Source of the DNA: Acidobacteriaceae bacterium
Lineage (GTDB): Bacteria; Acidobacteriota; Terriglobia; Terriglobales; Acidobacteriaceae
Reading direction: 5' to 3'
DNA: 64,000 nt
Assembly (NCBI GenBank): GCA_003140075.1
Contig: PLIO01000145.1
Coordinates: 1-64,000 of the forward strand
Positions 2,181 through 20,421 of this stretch are shown one piece after another (position 1 is the stretch's first letter; the number at the start of each line of letters is the position of its first letter). Made by a program: the position numbers and the translations under genes. Below the pieces are notes generated by a model, which was given only the letters and a program-made list of their open reading frames with translations, was not told where the DNA came from and searched no databases.

Positions 2181-2526
2181 ACCTGCCTCCATCCTAGGGT
2201 CACCGCAGTTCGTCCGACAAGTTACCGCAGTCATCTCCGCCGCTCTGGTCTTCGGGTACAGTTCGCTTAACTCCACTCCCTGCAGTGATGTGACCTGAGT
2301 CACCTTCCCCATTACAAAAGACCAATAGTCCTTCGTTGCACTGTGGTGCTTTGACGCTATCACCCCACGTTCATACGATGAAGACTGCCACACCGTATGC
2401 GGCGCCAGTTGGTCACTCCCCAAACGGCAGCAGCTCCCTCTTGTACGGTTGGGCGCTTGAGATTTCAGAGACGAGGTCGGGTTGATTAACACCAGACGAT
2501 ACGTGACTTACACCGGGACCGAACTT

Positions 2527-3144
2527 ATGGCGTCGCGCAAGTACAGAGGGTTCTCGTTGCTGGAGCTGCTGATAACGATCAGCATTCTCTTGATTATGGC
2601 CGGGGTCACCTTCGTCACTTTGCAGCCTGCGCTCAATCAGAACCACGTAAACTCGGGCTACGATACAACGTTGATGGCCCTGCGCAACACCCGCAATCTG
2701 GCGATCACGCAGAGTAACGAATACTACGTCAATTTCAATCCGGCTGGTTTTCCCGCGGGCACCATTCAAGTCGAGTTTCAAGGTCCCGCAGTCGCAGGGG
2801 TATTGCCACCGCTGCAACAAGTGATCACCTATGCCTTGCCGGCGGATGTGAGCTTCGCTGTCCAGACGGGATTTCCCGCCAATACCCCGGATAGCTTTGG
2901 CACCGGTGTCACTGCTATTGACTTCGAATCCACACCGGGTGTGCCTTTGAATTACGTCGTGTTCTATCCCGACGGATCGGCGCAAGACAGCCTCGGCAAC
3001 TATAGCAATGGCGTCGTCTATCTGACCCGCACTGGCAGCCCCATCTACATTTCGAAGGCCGTCACGCTATGGGGCGCAACCGGGAGAATCCGCGGTTGGT
3101 CGCTGAATAACGTAACCGGCGTTGCCACTTGGGTACAACAATGA
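2527..3144 (+). CDS. Prepilin-type protein, GspH/FimT-like minor pseudopilin
   Basis: MASRKYRGFSLLELLITISILLIMAGVTFV: type IV prepilin N-terminal methylation motif. Confidence 0.85.
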   Translation: MASRKYRGFSLLELLITISILLIMAGVTFVTLQPALNQNHVNSGYDTTLMALRNTRNLAITQSNEYYVNFNPAGFPAGTIQVEFQGPAVAGVLPPLQQVITYALPADVSFAVQTGFPANTPDSFGTGVTAIDFESTPGVPLNYVVFYPDGSAQDSLGNYSNGVVYLTRTGSPIYISKAVTLWGATGRIRGWSLNNVTGVATWVQQ

Positions 3145-3746
3145 CACAAGAAAACGAATCTGTGAGGAAGTATCAAGCGCAACGCGGCTTCACGCTACTC
3201 GAAGTCATGATCGCGACTGTCGTCATGACCATCGGCATTCTGGCATTGATGGCGAGTTTCGCCACCGCCATCGCTGCGACGGCTTCGGCGGAGGAAGATC
3301 TGGTGGCACGCCATAAGGCGCTCGATGCCATGGAAAGTATCTACACAGCGCGCAACAGCCAGCAGCTTCCTTTTGCGTCGATCAACAATATCGCCAACGG
3401 TGGAATTTTCCTCAGCGGGGCGCAGAAACTGCTTTGCGCCGGACCCGATGGCATCGTCGGCACCGCCGATGATGTTCCCTGCACCGCTCCCGATACCGGT
3501 GCAGCTTGCCCGGGAGGAATAGAATGCCTCGTCCTGCCTGGCCCGGACGGTATCCTGGGCACGGCCGACGACGTCACACAAACCCTGAGTAATTTCACGC
3601 GCACCATTGCCTTCAACCAGGTGCTGCTACCCACCGGCGGAGTCAACACCAACCTGATCGCCATCAGCGTCTCTGTCACATACATTAAGCCTGGTTGGCC
3701 TGCCCGAACCTATACGGTGAACGGGCTGATCTCCAGCTACCACTAG
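3129..3746 (+). CDS. PilV-like minor pilin
   Basis: QRGFTLLEVMIATVVMTIGILALMASFATAIAAT prepilin motif; start could be 3129 or 3141; overlaps preceding gene. Confidence 0.85.
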   Translation: MGTTMTQENESVRKYQAQRGFTLLEVMIATVVMTIGILALMASFATAIAATASAEEDLVARHKALDAMESIYTARNSQQLPFASINNIANGGIFLSGAQKLLCAGPDGIVGTADDVPCTAPDTGAACPGGIECLVLPGPDGILGTADDVTQTLSNFTRTIAFNQVLLPTGGVNTNLIAISVSVTYIKPGWPARTYTVNGLISSYH

Positions 3747-3750
3747 ACCG

Positions 3751-4923
3751 ATGAAAATCATGAAGATGCCCATCGCAAAATCGGAAAGCGGTTACAGCCT
3801 TCTGGAACTGATGATCGCCTCTGCCATCGGCGTAATCGTCGTCATGGCCATGACGCAAATGTTCCGCGTGGGAATGAACGCGACCTTTACCGTTACACAA
3901 CGCGCCGAGACCCAGGAGAACATGCGTGCCGCCATCGAATTAATGACGAAGGACATCAGCATGGCAGGCGCGGGCTTGCCTTCGGGCGGCCTGCAGTTGG
4001 CCAGTGGCAGCGGTGCCTCGAAAGTTGCCTGCAACCAATCCGGCACCTGCTACGTCCCCGCCGATACTTACCCGACGGGAAACTACATGTATGGCCTCCT
4101 GCCCGGCTACGGCAATGGCGTCGAGAATGCCAGCGTAATCACCAGCGCTCCCGCGGCAGTGAATGACAGCATCACTTCCATCTATTGCGACTACAATTTT
4201 CCGCTGACCAATTTCACGTTTACCTTTCCCAGCCAAACCCAGGCCACTGTGGCCTTGATAGCTGGCCCCAACTCGGCAATGCCCGAAAACATTCTGGCGC
4301 CCGGCGGTCTTAACGTCGGCGATCTGCTGTTCTTCCAGGTCACCACGCCAGGCGCGGGCACGGCCGGCAGCAACCAGGGGACCAGCGCCGCACAAACCGC
4401 TGCGGTGGTAGCAGAAATAACAGGCCTTCCCAGTAGCACTGAAATTCTCTTTGCTCCCGCCGACGCACTCAATTTCAATCAGACCGGCCCCAATAGTCTG
4501 GCCAACACGATCGCCACCTTAGGATCCGCTCTGGGCGGAGGCAATACGGTCACCGCCTGCCGCCTGAAAGCCGTGACTTACTTTCTGCAAGTTCCGCCCG
4601 CCGGCGGAACCGTTCAAACTCCGCGCCTGATGCGCCAAGTGAACGGCCTCACCGCCGTTCCGGTGGCCGACAACATCATCAACCTGCAATTCAGCTATGA
4701 CGTGATCAGTTCCACGAGCGGCCTTATGAATGCGAATCTGTCCAACCCGATCGCGGCTGGAGATTCCCCCGCGCTGATTCAGAAGGTCAATATTTGGATT
4801 ATGGGCCAAAGTCTGACGCAGGGAGGGACCCGATCCCAGAGCATGTATCTGGCGAGTTCCGTCAGTGCTGGCAATATGAGTTTCTGCAATTCCTACAGCA
4901 GCAACACAACTGTTTGCCAATGA
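3751..4923 (+). CDS. PilW-like minor pilin
   Basis: ESGYSLLELMIASAIGVIVVMAMTQMFR prepilin motif; PilW-like size and order. Confidence 0.85.
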   Translation: MKIMKMPIAKSESGYSLLELMIASAIGVIVVMAMTQMFRVGMNATFTVTQRAETQENMRAAIELMTKDISMAGAGLPSGGLQLASGSGASKVACNQSGTCYVPADTYPTGNYMYGLLPGYGNGVENASVITSAPAAVNDSITSIYCDYNFPLTNFTFTFPSQTQATVALIAGPNSAMPENILAPGGLNVGDLLFFQVTTPGAGTAGSNQGTSAAQTAAVVAEITGLPSSTEILFAPADALNFNQTGPNSLANTIATLGSALGGGNTVTACRLKAVTYFLQVPPAGGTVQTPRLMRQVNGLTAVPVADNIINLQFSYDVISSTSGLMNANLSNPIAAGDSPALIQKVNIWIMGQSLTQGGTRSQSMYLASSVSAGNMSFCNSYSSNTTVCQ

Positions 4924-4971
4924 TCGGCAATCTGTCCGAGGTTTGGGCTTTCGAGGTCGGAGGGGGAAAAC

Positions 4972-7900
4972 ATGGGAAAGAGTAAACGAGATTCGCGAGG
5001 CTTCACGCTCATTGCGGCGCTTCTGCTGACGGTGCTATTGTCGGCCGTGGCCGTTGGCCTGTTGTACATGGTCAGCAATGAGGAGCGCATGGGAGGCAAC
5101 GACCTGGAGAGCAACCTCGCCTACTACGGCGCGGAGTCCGGCATCGAAAACCTGACTGCCCAGCTTTCTCAGCTCTATCAGTCCTCTCAGAACCCAACCG
5201 CAGCGTCCATTACGGCCCTCGCCGCCCCCGCAAATTATCCGACTGCGCTTACCGGCTCGAACATCACGAGCATGAACTATGTGGAGTCCATCACCTGGCC
5301 GTCCACCCAGACCAACGGGACGCCTTGCCCGAATCTTCCCAACCCGTGCGGTTCCTGGGATATCGTCGGCTCCGGCTCGAACCAGGGGATGGTGGCGACC
5401 CTCATCCCGTTCAATCTGCAAGTTACGGCCACCCGCGCTTCTACCGCAGGTGAGGCCACAACCAACACCGCCATCACTGCCACCGGCGCATCCGTCAATC
5501 TCACCCGGACCGTGGAAGTCGCTCTTCTACCCGCTTTCGAGTTCGGAGTATTTTGCGACGGGGATTGCGACTATTTCGCCGGCCCGCCATTCAACTTCGG
5601 GGGCCGCGTTCATACCAATGGCAACCTGTTCCTGGCTGCCAACACCGGTCCTTTAACCTTCACCGACAAAATTACCGCCGTAGGCCAGGTCGTTACGTCC
5701 CAATTGGAGAATGGCACCGCCGCCGGCTCCGGGGCGGGTTCTTACAACGGCGCGGTTTACATACCCAATGCTTCGGGTGGTTGTCCCGCCGCTCCGAACG
5801 CTGGGCCGGGATCGGGCTCGAACTGCGTTGCCCTCAGCGGCGGAAGCTGGTCGGGCGGTTTTCCCCCAATCGCAGGTTCAGCAACTTCAAATTGGACCGG
5901 CATTTCCAAATCAACCTTTAACGGGTTCATTGAGACCGGAGCCACCGGCGCCACCGCGTTGCAGTTGCCCTTCGTGAACAGCTCGAAGGTGGGTGCAATC
6001 GACATCATTCGCAAACCTACACCCGGCGACACCGCGCAGGTGTCCTCCTCGCGGCTGTATAACGAAGCTTCGATCCGCATTTTGTTGGCCGATACCGAGG
6101 GCGACCTCTATCCCGGTGAAACCCGTTCCGACAGCGCGACGCAAGATATTCAGATCGGAACGCCGTTCACAGATCTCGGCAACACGACCGGTTATGTCAC
6201 CACTACGCAGACCGTGCCGGGTGGCGTCCCCGCAGTCGGCAATATGTACTTCGCTACCGCCCTGAAGGGCACCGGCACCAATGATTGGGCGACGCAAGCC
6301 CCTACGGGATGCACGAGCACATTAGCGTCCTGGCCGCTGTTTGGCCAAGTCACGGTCTCGGGCAAACAATGCCAGGGCGTATGGCTGCGTGTGGAATATT
6401 GCCCGACAACCGCTGCCAATTGCGGGACCAACCCCACTTCTTGGGTTGGCGTTACGAAGCAGTGGCTGGGGTACGGTTTTGGACGCACCTACAATCAGCC
6501 TCCGACGCACCCGTACAACAGCTCCACCGGCACGGCTCCGCTGTGCAAGAACTACCCGAACTATCCGGCAGCTCAGTGTCAGAATGGCATCAGTCCGGCC
6601 ATCCTGATTCTGCAGCAACTGCAAGAGCCCGTGGCCACGAGCAGCGCCATGGAGGGCGATACCACTGACTCGAGCGGAACGGCTCACAACTGGCTGCCCC
6701 TTAACTTCTATGACGCACGCGAAGGGGAACCGCGCGATGCCCGGCCCTCAGGAGATCCCGGCGGATCGGGAGGTGCTAATCCGAACTGCAGTCCGGTCGG
6801 CATCATGAACGCCGTGGAACTCGACGTAGGCAACCTGTGGTTGTGGCTGCAGGGATCGACGCCATATTCGGGCGGCAGCGGTAAGCTGGTCAACGCAGCC
6901 ACGTACAACGGCTACATTCTCTACTTCGCTGACCACCGTGGCATGTTGCCAGATCTGTACCCGCTGACCACGTTTAATAACGGCTTCTCGGGAATGTCAG
7001 GCTTGAACGACATCGTCAACTCTGGCTCCGCCGTCGGAGTCCCTGATGGAAAGCTTGAGCCGATGTCGTATTACGGAACGGTCACCTCCATCACCCCCGT
7101 TCCCTATTCGCCGGAAGACACGGCAGTGAAGGGTGCAGGGGTAAATGGGGGAAACGTCGATCGGTGGGGAGAACCGAACCTGGCCGCCGGGTTCGGCATC
7201 ACAAACACGACGAACATGGCCTTGCCTTATTACATTTACGGGTCGGTCACGGCGAATGCGGTGCGATGCGAGTCGTACGGCTCGGCATACGCCGCAAACG
7301 GGACCGCCACGGCAGAGTGGAACATGGTGGCCGCACCGCGACATGTGCTGCGCCTGGTCGATGGCGGTATGGATGGTTCCGGCAACAGTTTCGTTCCGCC
7401 GACAAACGGAAACCCGTCGATCAACGGGGTCGGCTTCACCGTCGCCTCGGAAGAACCCGTGTATGTCTGGGGCAACTACAACACCGGACCCAAAGATCCG
7501 TTCTGGCCGAGCGAAGACACACTTACAACCCCGCACTCGGCGGCATCCATCATGGCCGATGCGGTTACGCTACTGTCAAATCCCCCTGCGGCGAACAACA
7601 CCCAGGGAGGCAGTGCGGCTGCCACGACCGTCGGCTATACCGATTTGCTGACCTTTGAATACCCGGCCTATGTAACCGATCGTCCGGGCGACGACAGCTA
7701 CTACCGGATGGCCATCATCGCGGGAAAGAGCATTCCGTTCCCGAACCCTTCCTGGTCGACCGAAGCGGATTTCGGCACCGACGGCGGCATGCACAACTTC
7801 CTCCGCTATCTGGAAGACCGTGGAGCGAGCAACGCAGTAGTCAACTATGCCGGGTCGATGATCAGCATGTACTACTCGCAGTACGCGACCGGCAACTTCA

Positions 7901-8049
7901 AGTGCTGCACGTCGGTTTATGACGCGCCGGCGAAACGTAACTATTTCTTCGACACGCTGTTCGAGAACCCGAACAATCTGCCTCCCGGAACCCCCAGTTT
8001 CCAGGACGTAGTCAGTTTGGGTTTCCACCAAAACTTCACCCCGCAGTAA
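4972..8049 (+). CDS. Very large PilX-like pilus assembly protein (1025 aa)
   Basis: DSRGFTLIAALLLTVLLSAVAVGLLYMVSNEERMGGNDLESNLAYYGAESGIENL: PilX N-terminal pattern with long secreted C-terminal region. Confidence 0.75.
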   Translation: MGKSKRDSRGFTLIAALLLTVLLSAVAVGLLYMVSNEERMGGNDLESNLAYYGAESGIENLTAQLSQLYQSSQNPTAASITALAAPANYPTALTGSNITSMNYVESITWPSTQTNGTPCPNLPNPCGSWDIVGSGSNQGMVATLIPFNLQVTATRASTAGEATTNTAITATGASVNLTRTVEVALLPAFEFGVFCDGDCDYFAGPPFNFGGRVHTNGNLFLAANTGPLTFTDKITAVGQVVTSQLENGTAAGSGAGSYNGAVYIPNASGGCPAAPNAGPGSGSNCVALSGGSWSGGFPPIAGSATSNWTGISKSTFNGFIETGATGATALQLPFVNSSKVGAIDIIRKPTPGDTAQVSSSRLYNEASIRILLADTEGDLYPGETRSDSATQDIQIGTPFTDLGNTTGYVTTTQTVPGGVPAVGNMYFATALKGTGTNDWATQAPTGCTSTLASWPLFGQVTVSGKQCQGVWLRVEYCPTTAANCGTNPTSWVGVTKQWLGYGFGRTYNQPPTHPYNSSTGTAPLCKNYPNYPAAQCQNGISPAILILQQLQEPVATSSAMEGDTTDSSGTAHNWLPLNFYDAREGEPRDARPSGDPGGSGGANPNCSPVGIMNAVELDVGNLWLWLQGSTPYSGGSGKLVNAATYNGYILYFADHRGMLPDLYPLTTFNNGFSGMSGLNDIVNSGSAVGVPDGKLEPMSYYGTVTSITPVPYSPEDTAVKGAGVNGGNVDRWGEPNLAAGFGITNTTNMALPYYIYGSVTANAVRCESYGSAYAANGTATAEWNMVAAPRHVLRLVDGGMDGSGNSFVPPTNGNPSINGVGFTVASEEPVYVWGNYNTGPKDPFWPSEDTLTTPHSAASIMADAVTLLSNPPAANNTQGGSAAATTVGYTDLLTFEYPAYVTDRPGDDSYYRMAIIAGKSIPFPNPSWSTEADFGTDGGMHNFLRYLEDRGASNAVVNYAGSMISMYYSQYATGNFKCCTSVYDAPAKRNYFFDTLFENPNNLPPGTPSFQDVVSLGFHQNFTPQ

Positions 8050-8074: not shown

Positions 8075-8108
8075 AAAGCCCCGATCCTGCTTCAGGACCG
8101 GGGCTTTT
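8075..8108 (+). terminator. Rho-independent terminator after pilin cluster
   Basis: AAAGCCCCGATCCTGCTTCAGGACCGGGGCTTTT stem-loop with T-run. Confidence 0.8.
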
Positions 8109-8184: not shown

Positions 8185-9435
8185 ATGAGCGCATCTTCGC
8201 CGACTATGCCTCAGAATCAACCCGAAGAAACGGGTCGCCCCGCATCGGGCTGGCTCTGGACCGCGTTTTCCGTCTGTGCCATCGGGGCGATTGCGCTGTT
8301 CTTCATTCCAGCGTTCATCATTCGTCCCTTCACTCACCAGACGGCACGCGGACTCCTGCTCGCGATGGCCGTGCGCCAGCGCGCTCCGCTGGGCACGCTG
8401 ATCTCAGGTATCGCTTGTTTGGCTTTATCCTTGGCACTGTGGGGGACTGTCGGCCGCTGGCGGAAAGCCCTGCTCGTGTTGACTCTGGCCGTAGTCGCTT
8501 TTTCCGCTGTCATGTCACGCCTGAATTATTTCGAATGGATGTTCCATCCCATTGCAGGTCCGCAGTTCATTGCGCAGGCCGAGAGCAAGCTCGACTCTAA
8601 CGAGATGATAATGTCCGTGCGCTTCGGCGGCGACGCCCGCGCCTATCCCATCAGCCAGATGGCCTATCATCACGTCCTCAACGATGTAGTCGGAGGCGTG
8701 CCGATCGTCGCCACGTATTGAACGCTCTGTCACACCGGTCTGGTGTGGACGCGAACGGTAAACGGAACGGCCCTGCATTTCTACCTGGCCGGTATCAACA
8801 ACCAGAACTTTCTCATGCGCGACCAGGAAACCGGAACCTGGTGGCAGCAGATCACCGGCAAGGCCATCTACGGGCCGATGCGAGGCGCAGCGCTCAAGTT
8901 GGTCCCCAGCGACGAACTCAGCTTCGGCGAATGGAGAGCCGAATTTCCCTCCGGACAAGTCCTTGCGCCCGTCGCCAAATACACGAAAGAGTACGACCCC
9001 AACTGGGAACCCGACGTCGCGAAGCTACCGGTAGTGATCAGCTTCCCAGGTACTGAACTAAAATCGCGCGACGTCGTCATTGGACTGACCATCGGCGGCT
9101 CTGCCCGTGCTTATCCATGGGAGACCCTCGCGAAGCAATCTCCCATTCTCGATCGAGTCAACGGCACGCCGCTGCTTTTTGTGCTCGGCCCCGACGGCAA
9201 ATCATTCCGCGTCTTCGTCAGCCTCATCGACGGGCACGACGCAGAATTCTTTCTCCAGACTGATGCACATTCGTGGATACTGCTCGACTCACTGACTAAC
9301 AGCCAGTGGAACTTTCAAGGCTGCGCCACCTCAGGCTTGGCGAAGGGACGATGTCTCGATCGCATTCCTGCGTTGAAGGATTACTGGTTCGACTGGCGCA
9401 ACTACCATCCTGAGACCACCATCTACAAACGCTAG
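8185..9435 (+). CDS. DUF3179-family membrane protein, candidate selenoprotein: in-frame TGA (8719-8721) read as Sec at first Cys of YCxxC
   Basis: ORFs 8116-8721 and 8743-9435 are in the same frame; joined product ...AYHHVLNDVVGGVPIVATY-U-TLCHTGLVWTRTVNGTALHFYLAGINNQNFLMRDQETGTWWQQITGKAIYGP... is a continuous DUF3179-type domain; N-terminal TM helices. Confidence 0.8.
8722..8753 (+). promoter_or_regulatory. Candidate bacterial SECIS hairpin immediately 3' of TGA
   Basis: CGC(8723-8725)...CACACC(8731-8736)-GGTCT loop(8737-8741)-GGTGTG(8742-8747)...GCG(8751-8753); perfect 6-bp upper stem, G in first two loop positions. Confidence 0.75.
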
Positions 9436-9500: not shown

Positions 9501-12341
9501 ATGTTCCGACTCATCATGGTGTGGATGTCTTCGCTTGCGTTGTTGACCGTCACCGCAATTGCGCAAAGTCCCGACATTGCAGAGCCCGGTTCTATTCAGG
9601 CAATCGCGGCAGCTACGACCGATCCGCACTTTGTTTCCCCTTGGGTTTCCTATGTTCCGCAATCGAATAGCGTTCCGTCGCCGGAGAAGTTTCTGGGACG
9701 GATCATGGGAGCTCCCGGAGAATTGTTGGGGACGGAAAAGACATACGCCTATGCCCGCGCCTTGGCTGCCACGAGCCCGCGAGTTCGCGCGTTTACGATT
9801 GGGCGCAGTGAAGAAGGACGCGAAATCTTCATGCTCGCGATCGCGAATGAGGCCGGCATCCGCGATCTTGATCGTCTGAAAGCGGCCACTGCGGCGTTGG
9901 CGGATCCGCGGCGCACCGACCGGGCAGCAGCCGACAATCTCATCCTAACCGCCCGCCCTATTTATTACTTCAACGCCGCGCTCCATTCCGATGAGACGGG
10001 ATCATCCGAAGCGATGCTGGAACTCGCATACCGCTTGGCGGTGTCGGAGCAGCCCATGATCCGGCGGATTCGTGAGCAAGTGGTCGTGCTGATCAATCCC
10101 ATTTCCAACCCCGATGGCCGCGACAAGATGGTCGATTGGTTCTATCGATACCTGAAGGGCAAGACCGACCGCAACACGCTACCACGCCAGTCGCCGCCGT
10201 ATTGGTCAAAATACACCTTCGTCGACATCAACCGCGATACGCATCAGCAGACGCACGAGACGACGAAGGCGGTGCACCGCATGTTTTATGAGTGGCACCC
10301 CACAGTCGTCCACGACCTGCATGAGGGCACGCCGCTGATGATGACCTGGAATGGCACTGGTCCCTACAACCCCAACATTGACCCCATTACCTACACCGAG
10401 TTTCTTGAACTCAGCTTTCAGGAAGTGGAGGCGATGACTGCGATGGGGATGCCTGGGGTGTCGACATGGAATTTCGGCGAGGCGTTTGCTCATCTGTATC
10501 TCGATTCAGTAGCGATGAATCACAACAGCATCGGGCGTGGTTACGAGACATTTGGCAACGGCAGCGCGGAAACTGAGGAGCGCGCGGTTTCGCAATCTTC
10601 GGCAACGATGGAGTGGTACCGTCCTCTGCCTGCGCCACGGGAGGTGACATGGTCCGCCCGCGACAATCTCAACTACCAGGAGACGGGCGCGCTTGCAGCG
10701 CTGGACGAAACCGCGAGTCAATCCAAGGAAATGCTGCACAACTTCTACAAAAAGGGATGGGATTCCTGGCAGAAGGGCCTGACGCAACCGCCGTTTGCGT
10801 TTCTGATTCCAGAAAATCAGGGAGATCCGGCGCGAGTGGCACAGATGATAGGACGGCTCATGGGCCAGCAAATCGAAGTGGCGCGGGCGCAGAGCCCAAT
10901 TCAGCTCAAGGAAGGAAGCTTTCCCGCTGGAACATACGTGGTTCGCCTGGATCAGCCCTACCGCAACTATGCGGTCGATTTGCTGACGCCGCAACGTTAT
11001 CCGAAGGATGGAGAAGCGCCGTATGATGACGTCTCCTGGGAACTGCCCGCACACTACCATTTGCAGGCGATCTCTACCGCAGACGCGTCTATCCGCGATG
11101 CTGCTGTGACCCGGCTAATCGATCCGCCGCATGCTGTAGGACACATCAGCGGTACTGGAACGATTTATCTGCTAAAGGACACAGGACAGGAATCGTTTCT
11201 TGCCGCTCGTTATCGTCTGGCAAGTTTTGAAATTCAAATTGCGGAGCATGCGTTCGAGGAAGGCGGCGAAAGATACCCTGCTGGATCGTGGATCCTTACC
11301 GATCAACCCGGATTGCGCGACGCCATTCTCTCAACTGCAACGGAGCTGGGCCTCGACTTCACGCAGGTTTCCAATCAGCCCGAGGTGCCGCATCACAGCG
11401 CGAAAGCGCCGCGCATTGGCCTATGGGTGCCATGGGCCGATACCGACTCGATCGGTTGGATTCGTTACTCGCTCGATCAGCGCAAAGTGCCTTACACGTA
11501 TTTGCGTGACGAAGACATTCGCGCGGGGAGTCTGCCTGCGCGCGTCGACGTTTTGCTTTATGGACATGTCGATCTGGAACTGGCGGAGCAGATTGAGGGT
11601 CTGCCGAAAACCTGGTCGCCTATGGCTTTTAAGAAGACCGCGCTGACGCCAAGTTTTGGCACTCCCGCGGAATCCGATGACATCACGGGGGGAATCGGCT
11701 ACGAGGGGCTGGCACAGATTCAACATTTCATCGACGACGGCGGGTTGATGGTAACGCTCGGCAGCGGGAGCATGCTGGCGCTGGAAGGGGGACTGGTGCG
11801 CTTTGTGCGCCGGTCTTCGGGAGGGGTTCCGCGCAGTACAGCGGGAGGCGGGAGTGCTTCGTCCGCCGCGTCACAACACGCAGCGACGCGGACACCCGGA
11901 GCCCACGTGCGAGTCACGTTCGACCGCGGTGACCATCCAATCGCGTACGGGTATCCCGCGCACACCTACGTCTTCCGGCAGAACTTTCCGCTGTATGACG
12001 TCCCGCGCCGCTGGCTGCGGATGGCCTATTGCACCACGTGCCTCGACGGTCCGGAAGACCGCAGCGGTGTGGTGATGGAGTGGGGCGATGCCGACGGGAA
12101 GCCTTTCGTCGAAAGTGGGCAGGCATGGGGAGAAGAAAATCTTATCGGACGGCCGGCAATCTTGGACATGCCCGTGGGCAAAGGGCACGTCGTATCTTTC
12201 AACTTCAATCCGATGCATCGCGACTTGAACCGGGGTGACCAGCGTTTGCTTTGGAATGCGCTTCTCAACTGGCAGACGATCATCGCAGGGCAGCCGAAGC
12301 CTGCGCGAGCGCCTGGGCCCGCGCCTGAGCCCGAGGAGTGA
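9501..12341 (+). CDS. Secreted M14-family zinc carboxypeptidase-like metallopeptidase
   Basis: Signal peptide MFRLIMVWMSSLALLTVTAIAQ; YFNAALHSDETGSSEAMLELAYRL; HDLHEGTPLMMTWNGTGPYNPNIDPI. Confidence 0.8.
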   Translation: MFRLIMVWMSSLALLTVTAIAQSPDIAEPGSIQAIAAATTDPHFVSPWVSYVPQSNSVPSPEKFLGRIMGAPGELLGTEKTYAYARALAATSPRVRAFTIGRSEEGREIFMLAIANEAGIRDLDRLKAATAALADPRRTDRAAADNLILTARPIYYFNAALHSDETGSSEAMLELAYRLAVSEQPMIRRIREQVVVLINPISNPDGRDKMVDWFYRYLKGKTDRNTLPRQSPPYWSKYTFVDINRDTHQQTHETTKAVHRMFYEWHPTVVHDLHEGTPLMMTWNGTGPYNPNIDPITYTEFLELSFQEVEAMTAMGMPGVSTWNFGEAFAHLYLDSVAMNHNSIGRGYETFGNGSAETEERAVSQSSATMEWYRPLPAPREVTWSARDNLNYQETGALAALDETASQSKEMLHNFYKKGWDSWQKGLTQPPFAFLIPENQGDPARVAQMIGRLMGQQIEVARAQSPIQLKEGSFPAGTYVVRLDQPYRNYAVDLLTPQRYPKDGEAPYDDVSWELPAHYHLQAISTADASIRDAAVTRLIDPPHAVGHISGTGTIYLLKDTGQESFLAARYRLASFEIQIAEHAFEEGGERYPAGSWILTDQPGLRDAILSTATELGLDFTQVSNQPEVPHHSAKAPRIGLWVPWADTDSIGWIRYSLDQRKVPYTYLRDEDIRAGSLPARVDVLLYGHVDLELAEQIEGLPKTWSPMAFKKTALTPSFGTPAESDDITGGIGYEGLAQIQHFIDDGGLMVTLGSGSMLALEGGLVRFVRRSSGGVPRSTAGGGSASSAASQHAATRTPGAHVRVTFDRGDHPIAYGYPAHTYVFRQNFPLYDVPRRWLRMAYCTTCLDGPEDRSGVVMEWGDADGKPFVESGQAWGEENLIGRPAILDMPVGKGHVVSFNFNPMHRDLNRGDQRLLWNALLNWQTIIAGQPKPARAPGPAPEPEE

Positions 12342-12479
12342 AGACGCACGCCGTCATAATTACAATTGATGATCGGAGAGGAGCGTTGCGAGCCTGAAAA
12401 AAGCTAGGCAGATTCCTCACCAAGGAACGGTTCGGAATGACTAGCGGTAGTGACAAGAACAATGAGGGAGGATTCATTC

Positions 12480-13091
12480 GTGTCGGAAATTCATGCCATC
12501 TTTTGGGATGTGGGAGGAGTGCTGCTCACCAACGCCTGGGATCGAACCGAGCGCACGGCTGCGCTCGAACACTTTCGTCTGGATGAAGAGGAGTTTCACT
12601 CACGGCACGAGATGGTGGTCTCGTCGTTTGAGCGGGGAAAGATCACGCTTGACGAATATCTCGATCGCACCGTGTTTTATCGCAACCGTCCCTTCACCCG
12701 CGATGCTTTCCGGAATTACATGTACTCGTTGTCGCAGCCGATGCCGGAGGTTCTCGTCTTCGCGCGCGCTCTCGCCGATTCCGGCAAGTACTTCATGAGC
12801 ACGATTAACAACGAGTCCCGCGAGCTGAACTTGCACCGCATCGAGAAGTACGGGTTGCGAGGAATCTTCCGGCTGTTTGTGAGCTCGTGTTTCGTGGGAC
12901 TGCGCAAGCCGGAGAGCGGCATTTATCGGTTAGCCATTGAGACTACGCAGGTGAATCCGGAAGAGTGTTGCTTCATCGACGACCGGGCGCTGAATCTGGA
13001 ATGCGCCGCAAAGCTGGGCATGCGGACAATTCAGATGCAGACGCTGGAGCAGTTGCGGGAGGAACTGGGGAAGCTGGGAGTGAAGCAGTGA
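12480..13091 (+). CDS. HAD-superfamily (HAD-IA) hydrolase
   Basis: AIFWDVGGVLLTNAWDR; CFVGLRKPESGIYRLA; ECCFIDDRALNLECAAKLGM. Start GTG 12480 or ATG 12450. Confidence 0.85.
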   Translation: MSEIHAIFWDVGGVLLTNAWDRTERTAALEHFRLDEEEFHSRHEMVVSSFERGKITLDEYLDRTVFYRNRPFTRDAFRNYMYSLSQPMPEVLVFARALADSGKYFMSTINNESRELNLHRIEKYGLRGIFRLFVSSCFVGLRKPESGIYRLAIETTQVNPEECCFIDDRALNLECAAKLGMRTIQMQTLEQLREELGKLGVKQ

Positions 13092-18993: not shown

Positions 18994-20256
18994 CTATGGG
19001 CCCCCAGCGTCGCCGGAGGGCGCGCCCATGGTCCACGGCGTCAGCATCGCGGCGCTGCTGGCGTTGGGAGCGGCTTGTAGAAGTTGTTCCACGCCGCTCA
19101 CGAGCGTAATCGTCGTCCCTACGCCCGCAGTGCCCTCAGTCGCGAGGATTATCACCGCGTCGCCCTTATGCAAGTCCGCCAGAGAAACAGTGGGGACGTG
19201 GCTCAGCATCTGCTGAAAATCCGGAGCACCGCCCGAACGGCCACCCGTAGCACTTCCGCCAGAAGACGCTCCACTGGAAGGACCCGACGGAAGCGGGGGT
19301 TGGCCGCTAGTGGTTTGAGCGTTTGAGGTTGGGACATTGGTTGCGGAGCCGCTCGATGGCGCTCCAGGTATCCCGCCCGCAGCCGCTCCCTTCAAGCGCA
19401 TCGCGATCCGCTGCGCCATCTCAGGCGGCAAACGGCGAAGTTGCGAGTCTCCGGTCACTTTGACCACCACTGATTTCTTCGACAATAAATCCTGAACGCT
19501 GAGAGTCGATGCACTTGCGTCCACCGAATTGACGGTGCCGGCAATACTACGGAACGATCCGGAAACGATTTCCTCGGCTGTCAGTTCGCTTCCATCGGCG
19601 CCGAGATCTCCACGGGCGCGCACCTGATCGCCGGGACGAATTTCCTGCAGCGTGCTTGGTTTGGCATCGTCAAATTCCACGGAGTCCGGCGCATAACGGC
19701 GAATGGCCGTGGCGCTGGACGTGTGAATCGTGATGCTCTTCTTTGAGGCAAAGCTACCCACGGAAATTGTGACAGTTCCGGTCGCTGTATCCTCCGCGGT
19801 CACCAAGCCGCCCACGCCACGCTTCTGCCAGTCTTCCAACTCCTGCTTATGCCGCGTTTCGAGATCGGAGTGCTTCATCACGACGACGGTGGAAGCCACG
19901 AGCGATAGATTATCGTCGGAAGCTTTGCCGCCAACCAGGATGCGATCACCGACCTGCAGATCCTGCAACTGAATCGGGGTGGCGTTCTTCAGATCCTTCT
20001 CGCCCGGAGCTATGCGAAGAATCCGGGTGGTGGGCTGGACAGTGATATTGACGTCAGGGCCGGAGTCGGGCGTGAGAGTGATCGCCGTTCCGTTGACGAC
20101 TTTGATGGCGCCAACGCGTCGACTGGCGGTACCTGGACCGGCGCTGGGTTGGGTTTGCTGGCCGGAGGAGATCGCATAACAGCAAGGCGCCAGTGGAAAA
20201 GCGGCGCTTGCGGCGCAGAGTGCAATTGTCAGCAGCCGGTTTGTGTTTGCGCTCAT
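18994..20256 (-). CDS. Secreted DUF5666-like repeat protein
   Basis: VGDRILVGGKASDDNLSLVASTVVVM; RPGDQVRARGDLGADGSELTAEEIVSGSFRSIAGTVNSVD; signal peptide. Confidence 0.7.
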   Translation of the reverse strand: MSANTNRLLTIALCAASAAFPLAPCCYAISSGQQTQPSAGPGTASRRVGAIKVVNGTAITLTPDSGPDVNITVQPTTRILRIAPGEKDLKNATPIQLQDLQVGDRILVGGKASDDNLSLVASTVVVMKHSDLETRHKQELEDWQKRGVGGLVTAEDTATGTVTISVGSFASKKSITIHTSSATAIRRYAPDSVEFDDAKPSTLQEIRPGDQVRARGDLGADGSELTAEEIVSGSFRSIAGTVNSVDASASTLSVQDLLSKKSVVVKVTGDSQLRRLPPEMAQRIAMRLKGAAAGGIPGAPSSGSATNVPTSNAQTTSGQPPLPSGPSSGASSGGSATGGRSGGAPDFQQMLSHVPTVSLADLHKGDAVIILATEGTAGVGTTITLVSGVEQLLQAAPNASSAAMLTPWTMGAPSGDAGGP

Positions 20257-20421
20257 ACGCCTTTCATTTCGCTCTTTTCGCTCTTTAACTAATCTACATC
20301 GGCCCATCGCACAGGAACGCAGGATTTACAAAGTTTTACTTCGAGACGCAAAGCTGCCACAAAAGCGACGCAAGAATATCGAGGCGGCATTAACAGAAAA
20401 TAATGCAGGTTCGCTGCGCAT

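Follow-up and report, generated by a model that had tools for sequence, protein, structure and literature searches.

In the SECIS of Escherichia coli fdhF, GGUCU lies in the apical loop of a hairpin shortly after the UGA. DUF3179 is listed as a selenoprotein family with the motif UxxC/T in two reviews, from 2022 and 2026 (PMC9312934, PMC13188914), and PMC9312934 credits DUF3179 selenoproteins to Zhang and Gladyshev 2007, a paper on the Olavius algarvensis symbiont. RefSeq naming likewise includes 'DUF3179 domain-containing (seleno)protein'. Selenoproteins were known in Acidobacteria by 2006 (PMC1794560), and the searched text of PMC9312934 and PMC13188914 makes no mention of Acidobacteria.

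We analysed a locus in 64,000 nucleotides of acidobacterial DNA (the window; Acidobacteriaceae bacterium, assembly GCA_003140075.1, contig PLIO01000145.1, positions 1 to 64,000). A first-pass annotation, made from the sequence, had suggested that the DUF3179 gene found there might represent a new selenoprotein family. We reject that proposal on the strength of the two reviews and the RefSeq names; since the family is already listed, the gene is a well-supported further member of it. The features of the locus are as follows.

8089 to 8104, plus strand: terminator-like hairpin between a PilX-like gene and the DUF3179 gene, a weak call (2 found in the region, 1.5 expected)
8185 to 9435, plus strand: DUF3179 selenoprotein gene, 416 residues, predicted Sec at 179, stop TAG
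8242 to 8520, plus strand: three N-terminal helices in the model (residues 20-45, 54-86 and 91-112), a probable membrane anchor, with transmembrane character judged from hydrophobicity
8551 to 9417, plus strand: PF11376 (DUF3179) domain, residues 123-411
8551 to 9000, plus strand: first DUF3179 repeat, residues about 123-272, with invariant H162 and D167 and with U179xxC182; Rieske-like in the model
8719 to 8721, plus strand: in-frame TGA, read as selenocysteine (Sec) 179
8728 to 8730, plus strand: TGT, encoding Cys182, the second residue of the UxxC motif
8731 to 8747, plus strand: bacterial SECIS-like hairpin CACACC-GGTCT-GGTGTG, assigned from the centroid structure and by comparison
9031 to 9432, plus strand: second DUF3179 repeat, residues about 283-416, with no Cys motif

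As the first-pass annotation had described, two open reading frames in the same frame are parted by a single TGA. The frame runs from ATG at 8185 through TGA at 8719-8721 to TAG at 9433-9435, with 178 residues before the TGA and 237 after it, and the peptide that had been given across the junction, LNDVVGGVPIVATY-[TGA]-TLCHTGLVWTR, is exact. Once joined, the two halves do form one continuous DUF3179 domain: a single PF11376 match spans the TGA (residues 123-411, profile positions 7-292 of 292, E = 1.4e-62), scoring 212.3 bits against a gathering cut-off of 27. The motif in the protein, U179-T-L-C182, satisfies the UxxC/T pattern of the review-listed DUF3179 selenoproteins. None of the NCBIfam models matched the joined protein, and no sequence relative of it was found among solved structures. 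TGA-joined open-frame pairs are not rare in the window (11 over all frames, both members having 120 codons or more), so the weight of the case rests on the continuity of the domain and on the TGA being conserved across 78 distinct genes.

Our preferred reading, to which we assign a probability of roughly 0.94, is that the gene belongs to the known DUF3179 family and truly encodes a selenoprotein, its UGA being read as Sec; the figure covers Sec insertion and family membership, and not the redox role. Following this logic, SelB would deliver Sec-tRNA(Sec) to the UGA at 8719, aided by the hairpin at 8731-8747, and the product would be a 416-residue membrane protein carrying U179-x-x-C182, with the three N-terminal helices as its anchor.

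Homologs of both kinds that the first-pass annotation had suggested looking for, with TGA and with Cys in this column, were found. TGA is carried in the column by 99 homologous loci; the few others are partial or frameshifted, leaving the column unreadable. Removal of duplicates left 78 distinct genes, and TGA stood in the same alignment column in all of them (78/78), with protein identity among TGA-bearing homologs down to about 39% and homology on both sides of the TGA. This excludes a sequencing error or a recent pseudogene. Record titles of the TGA-bearing loci include Acidobacteriaceae, Bryobacterales, Blastocatellia, Pyrinomonadaceae and others, and among named relatives, MAGs of Acidobacteriaceae and Candidatus Sulfotelmatobacter stand closest. 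The Cys homologs, among loci L127-L162, have TGC or TGT in the TGA column; at the motif, TFCPLC or FCTLC is found in more distant homologs, and UPLC, UPLT or UPLA in TGA-bearing paralogs. Judged from these genes, the predicted Sec form of DUF3179 is widespread in Acidobacteriota, of which the literature searched contains no report. Where the TGA is taken solely as a stop, the gene is split in two, likewise in many acidobacterial genomes, and a conserved soil-bacterial protein may be missed or truncated.

The hairpin after the TGA has six pairs and a GGUCU loop, with 15 nt (spacer plus stem) between TGA and loop. It is seen in the centroid structure; folding the 57-nt stretch to minimum energy gives a different structure. 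Hairpin energy was uninformative (z = 0.59 versus shuffles) and was dropped as evidence. Because the peptide HTGLVW favours such a hairpin, with at least six pairs and a GGTCT-containing loop arising in 5.7% of random synonymous codings of the same peptide, the hairpin on its own is modest evidence, and we used comparative evidence instead. Synonymous entropy over codons +1 to +8 was 0.25 of background, compared with 0.88 over a further 80 conserved codons (p = 3.5e-6), and the exact CACACC-GGTCT-GGTGTG is retained in 72 genes. The closing pair is swapped on both sides in L041 and L112, a compensatory C-G to G-C change (CACACG-GGTCT-CGTGTG); in L039 and L089 the original stem is broken and a new stem about 5 nt downstream presents the GGTCT loop (GGGTCT-GGTCT-GGACCC); and L098 and L107 have a GGA-loop variant. 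Searches of the window found no Rfam families.

In six species of this family (L157-L162) the TGA column holds TGC, inside the same peptide, TYCTLCHTGLVW. In none of these genes do 5 or more pairs form a hairpin with a GGU/GGA-type loop, and SelB is over the cut-off in none of the six genomes. Synonymous constraint, compensatory and displaced forms, and absence in the Cys species together indicate that the SECIS hairpin is selected beyond the protein sequence. With Sec/TGA and Cys/TGC species inside one family, there is a ready natural comparison for why Sec is retained.

A five-model AlphaFold2 prediction of the full protein (mean pLDDT 93.9) gave three N-terminal helices followed by a beta-rich domain. 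The helices are of transmembrane length, which fits the membrane anchoring that the first-pass annotation had proposed; the three helices, together with a positively charged RWRK loop that joins the second helix to the third, suggest that the duplicated DUF3179 domain probably faces the periplasm. This domain is internally duplicated: comparing its two halves gave E = 8e-12 by BLASTP and E = 1.1e-27 by hhalign, the latter with 24% identity across 130 columns. U179-x-x-C182 occurs in the first repeat only, and the second has GPDGKS at that place. The literature searched holds no report that DUF3179 is duplicated in this way with UxxC confined to the first repeat, nor that this repeat weakly resembles Rieske folds. 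Across 49 sequences, A153, H162, D167, the Sec/Cys column 179, L181 and others are invariant, and C182 is nearly so. In the model, a strand of the first repeat ends at U179, and the turn of a beta hairpin follows immediately.

The protein may have a role in redox chemistry or metal binding, as first envisaged. U179 would most likely act as a selenol, cycling via a selenenyl-sulfide with C182, and we put at about even odds that the protein is an extracytoplasmic thiol/selenol oxidoreductase. Four loci (L134, L140, L141 and L143) are paralogous TGA-bearing DUF3179 genes in which UPLT or UPLA replaces UxxC, so the resolving Cys182 is not universal and some lineages can do without the second Cys.

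The Rieske fold of NirD holds no cluster. When the first repeat was modelled alone (pLDDT 94.1) and compared with the PDB by Foldseek, the best matches were almost all Rieske-fold proteins, including Rieske ferredoxins and NirD-type proteins, at probabilities up to 1.00 and E = 0.02 to 1 (best 0.022); for several of them the TM-score by target was about 0.55, at 2.6-3.0 Å over 82-85 columns. The full-length model also matched Rieske proteins. These matches, together with the invariance of H162 and of the Sec/Cys column, would suit a first repeat in which Sec is present but which serves chiefly to bind a metal or cluster on a Rieske-like scaffold (H162, U179, C182), not as a dithiol-type redox site. 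Such a binding site, which competes with the functional half of the preferred reading and not with Sec insertion, seems to us unlikely: every Foldseek E-value lay above 0.001, hhalign against five Rieske proteins of the same genome found no similarity (probability 2.6%), the CxH/CxxH Rieske ligand pattern is absent from the conserved residues of the 49 sequences, and paralogs with UPLT and UPLA exist. No match to PF00355 was listed for 41 DUF3179 repeats. We do not claim membership of the Rieske family, because no E-value fell below 0.001, profile similarity was absent and so was the ligand pattern. Returning to the selenol redox protein, we entertain as a tentative and rather doubtful idea that DUF3179 arose as a tandem duplication of a Rieske-like fold that lost its Fe-S ligand pattern and holds UxxC/CxxC in the first repeat near the old cluster loop. 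The protein would then be a selenol redox protein anchored in the membrane and built on a scaffold of Rieske origin. No function has been assigned to the family, and the duplication together with a possible Rieske-like fold gives a first structural lead on it. When the model of 8551-9435 was compared with a viral structure library, the only match with an E-value below 0.001 was an Indivirus giant-virus protein (A0A1V0SD44, E = 1.2e-7), uncharacterised and uninformative on function.

The host genome (5.77 Mb, 276 contigs) encodes the Sec machinery that the first-pass annotation had proposed searching for as selA, selB, selC and selD. It has a tRNA-Sec with a UCA anticodon (C121:6318-6411; 64.4 bits versus a gathering score of 47), SelB (369.6 bits), SelA (548 bits summed) and SelD (373.7 bits), each of the three proteins above its curated cut-off, so that all four occur in one genome. 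Among 80 genomes with DUF3179, SelB was over the cut-off in 41 of the 42 with a TGA-bearing form versus 28 of the 38 with TGA-free forms only (p = 0.002, a value that is only indicative because related genomes are not independent). The single exception, G140, has TGA-DUF3179 with SelB not over the cut-off and is 75% complete. Six relatives carrying TGA-DUF3179 and a full SelB had no strong tRNA-Sec match, for which assembly gaps or a divergent tRNA are candidate explanations; one of them, G036 (L026, L172), is in about 20 contigs and 97% complete, and its selC may be divergent or missing. In the relative G034 the DUF3179 gene (PLHQ01000105.1; L043 and L085) is broken in two frames near the TGA region, possibly by an assembly frameshift or by true decay, and tRNA-Sec is still found in that genome. 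Cys homologs, machinery and TGA in homologs together give strong support to the original placing of Sec at the first Cys of the TYCxLC motif.

Some deltaproteobacteria are known to have a selC*-type tRNA-Cys. An opal-suppressor tRNA of this type, or an acidobacterial allo-tRNA, could decode the UGA as Cys or another standard amino acid; allo-tRNAs have been reported in Acidobacteria (PMC7609411), and TGA-free homologs have Cys at this position. We regard such decoding as very improbable, however, as among the genome's eight best tRNA-Sec matches only the full tRNA-Sec has a UCA anticodon, both SelA and SelD are encoded, and the TGC form in six species coincides with the absence of both SelB and the hairpin. 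Least credible is a genuine stop, whether it reflects a nonsense mutation, a pseudogene or a sequencing error, or ends an intentionally truncated anchor that is followed by a separate C-terminal protein: a GTG-started ORF of 230 aa does begin at 8743 and chance joined open frames exist in the window, but the TGA is fixed in the 78 distinct and widely diverged genes with homology on both sides, a stop would cut through a single domain repeat, between two of the strands in the confidently predicted model, and the codons that follow the TGA show added constraint.

Upstream of the selenoprotein gene, at 2482-8049, lie three genes with prepilin N-methylation motifs and then a 1025-aa PilX-like gene. 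Synteny between the PilX-like gene and the DUF3179 gene extends to 25 relatives and looks clade-level. No functional operon link or operon partner was found among the neighbouring genes, no promoter consensus was found for the DUF3179 gene, and the search for phage homologs of its protein found none. Directly downstream, a large M14-type zinc carboxypeptidase gene (9504-12341) is followed by a HAD-type hydrolase (12450-13091), and a protein matching both DUF5666 and CusF-like is encoded on the minus strand at 18994-20307.

Set beside the known systems, the hairpin resembles the E. coli fdhF SECIS in its GGUCU apical loop and in its short distance 3' of the UGA, but its upper stem is an uninterrupted 6 bp with no bulged U assigned. 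Rieske ferredoxins and NirD may share the predicted fold of the first DUF3179 repeat, by Foldseek matches whose E-values are not significant, whereas DUF3179 has a tandem duplication and UxxC and is without CxH/CxxH ligands or profile similarity to them. The RefSeq '(seleno)protein' matches share the family name, and those seen are haloarchaeal plasmid genes with 24-31% identity. The DUF3179 selenoproteins of the Olavius algarvensis deltaproteobacterial symbiont, known from review listings, belong to the same Pfam family and likewise have Sec in UxxC/T; the gene described here differs in its acidobacterial host, its three-helix membrane anchor and its motif TYUTLCHTG.
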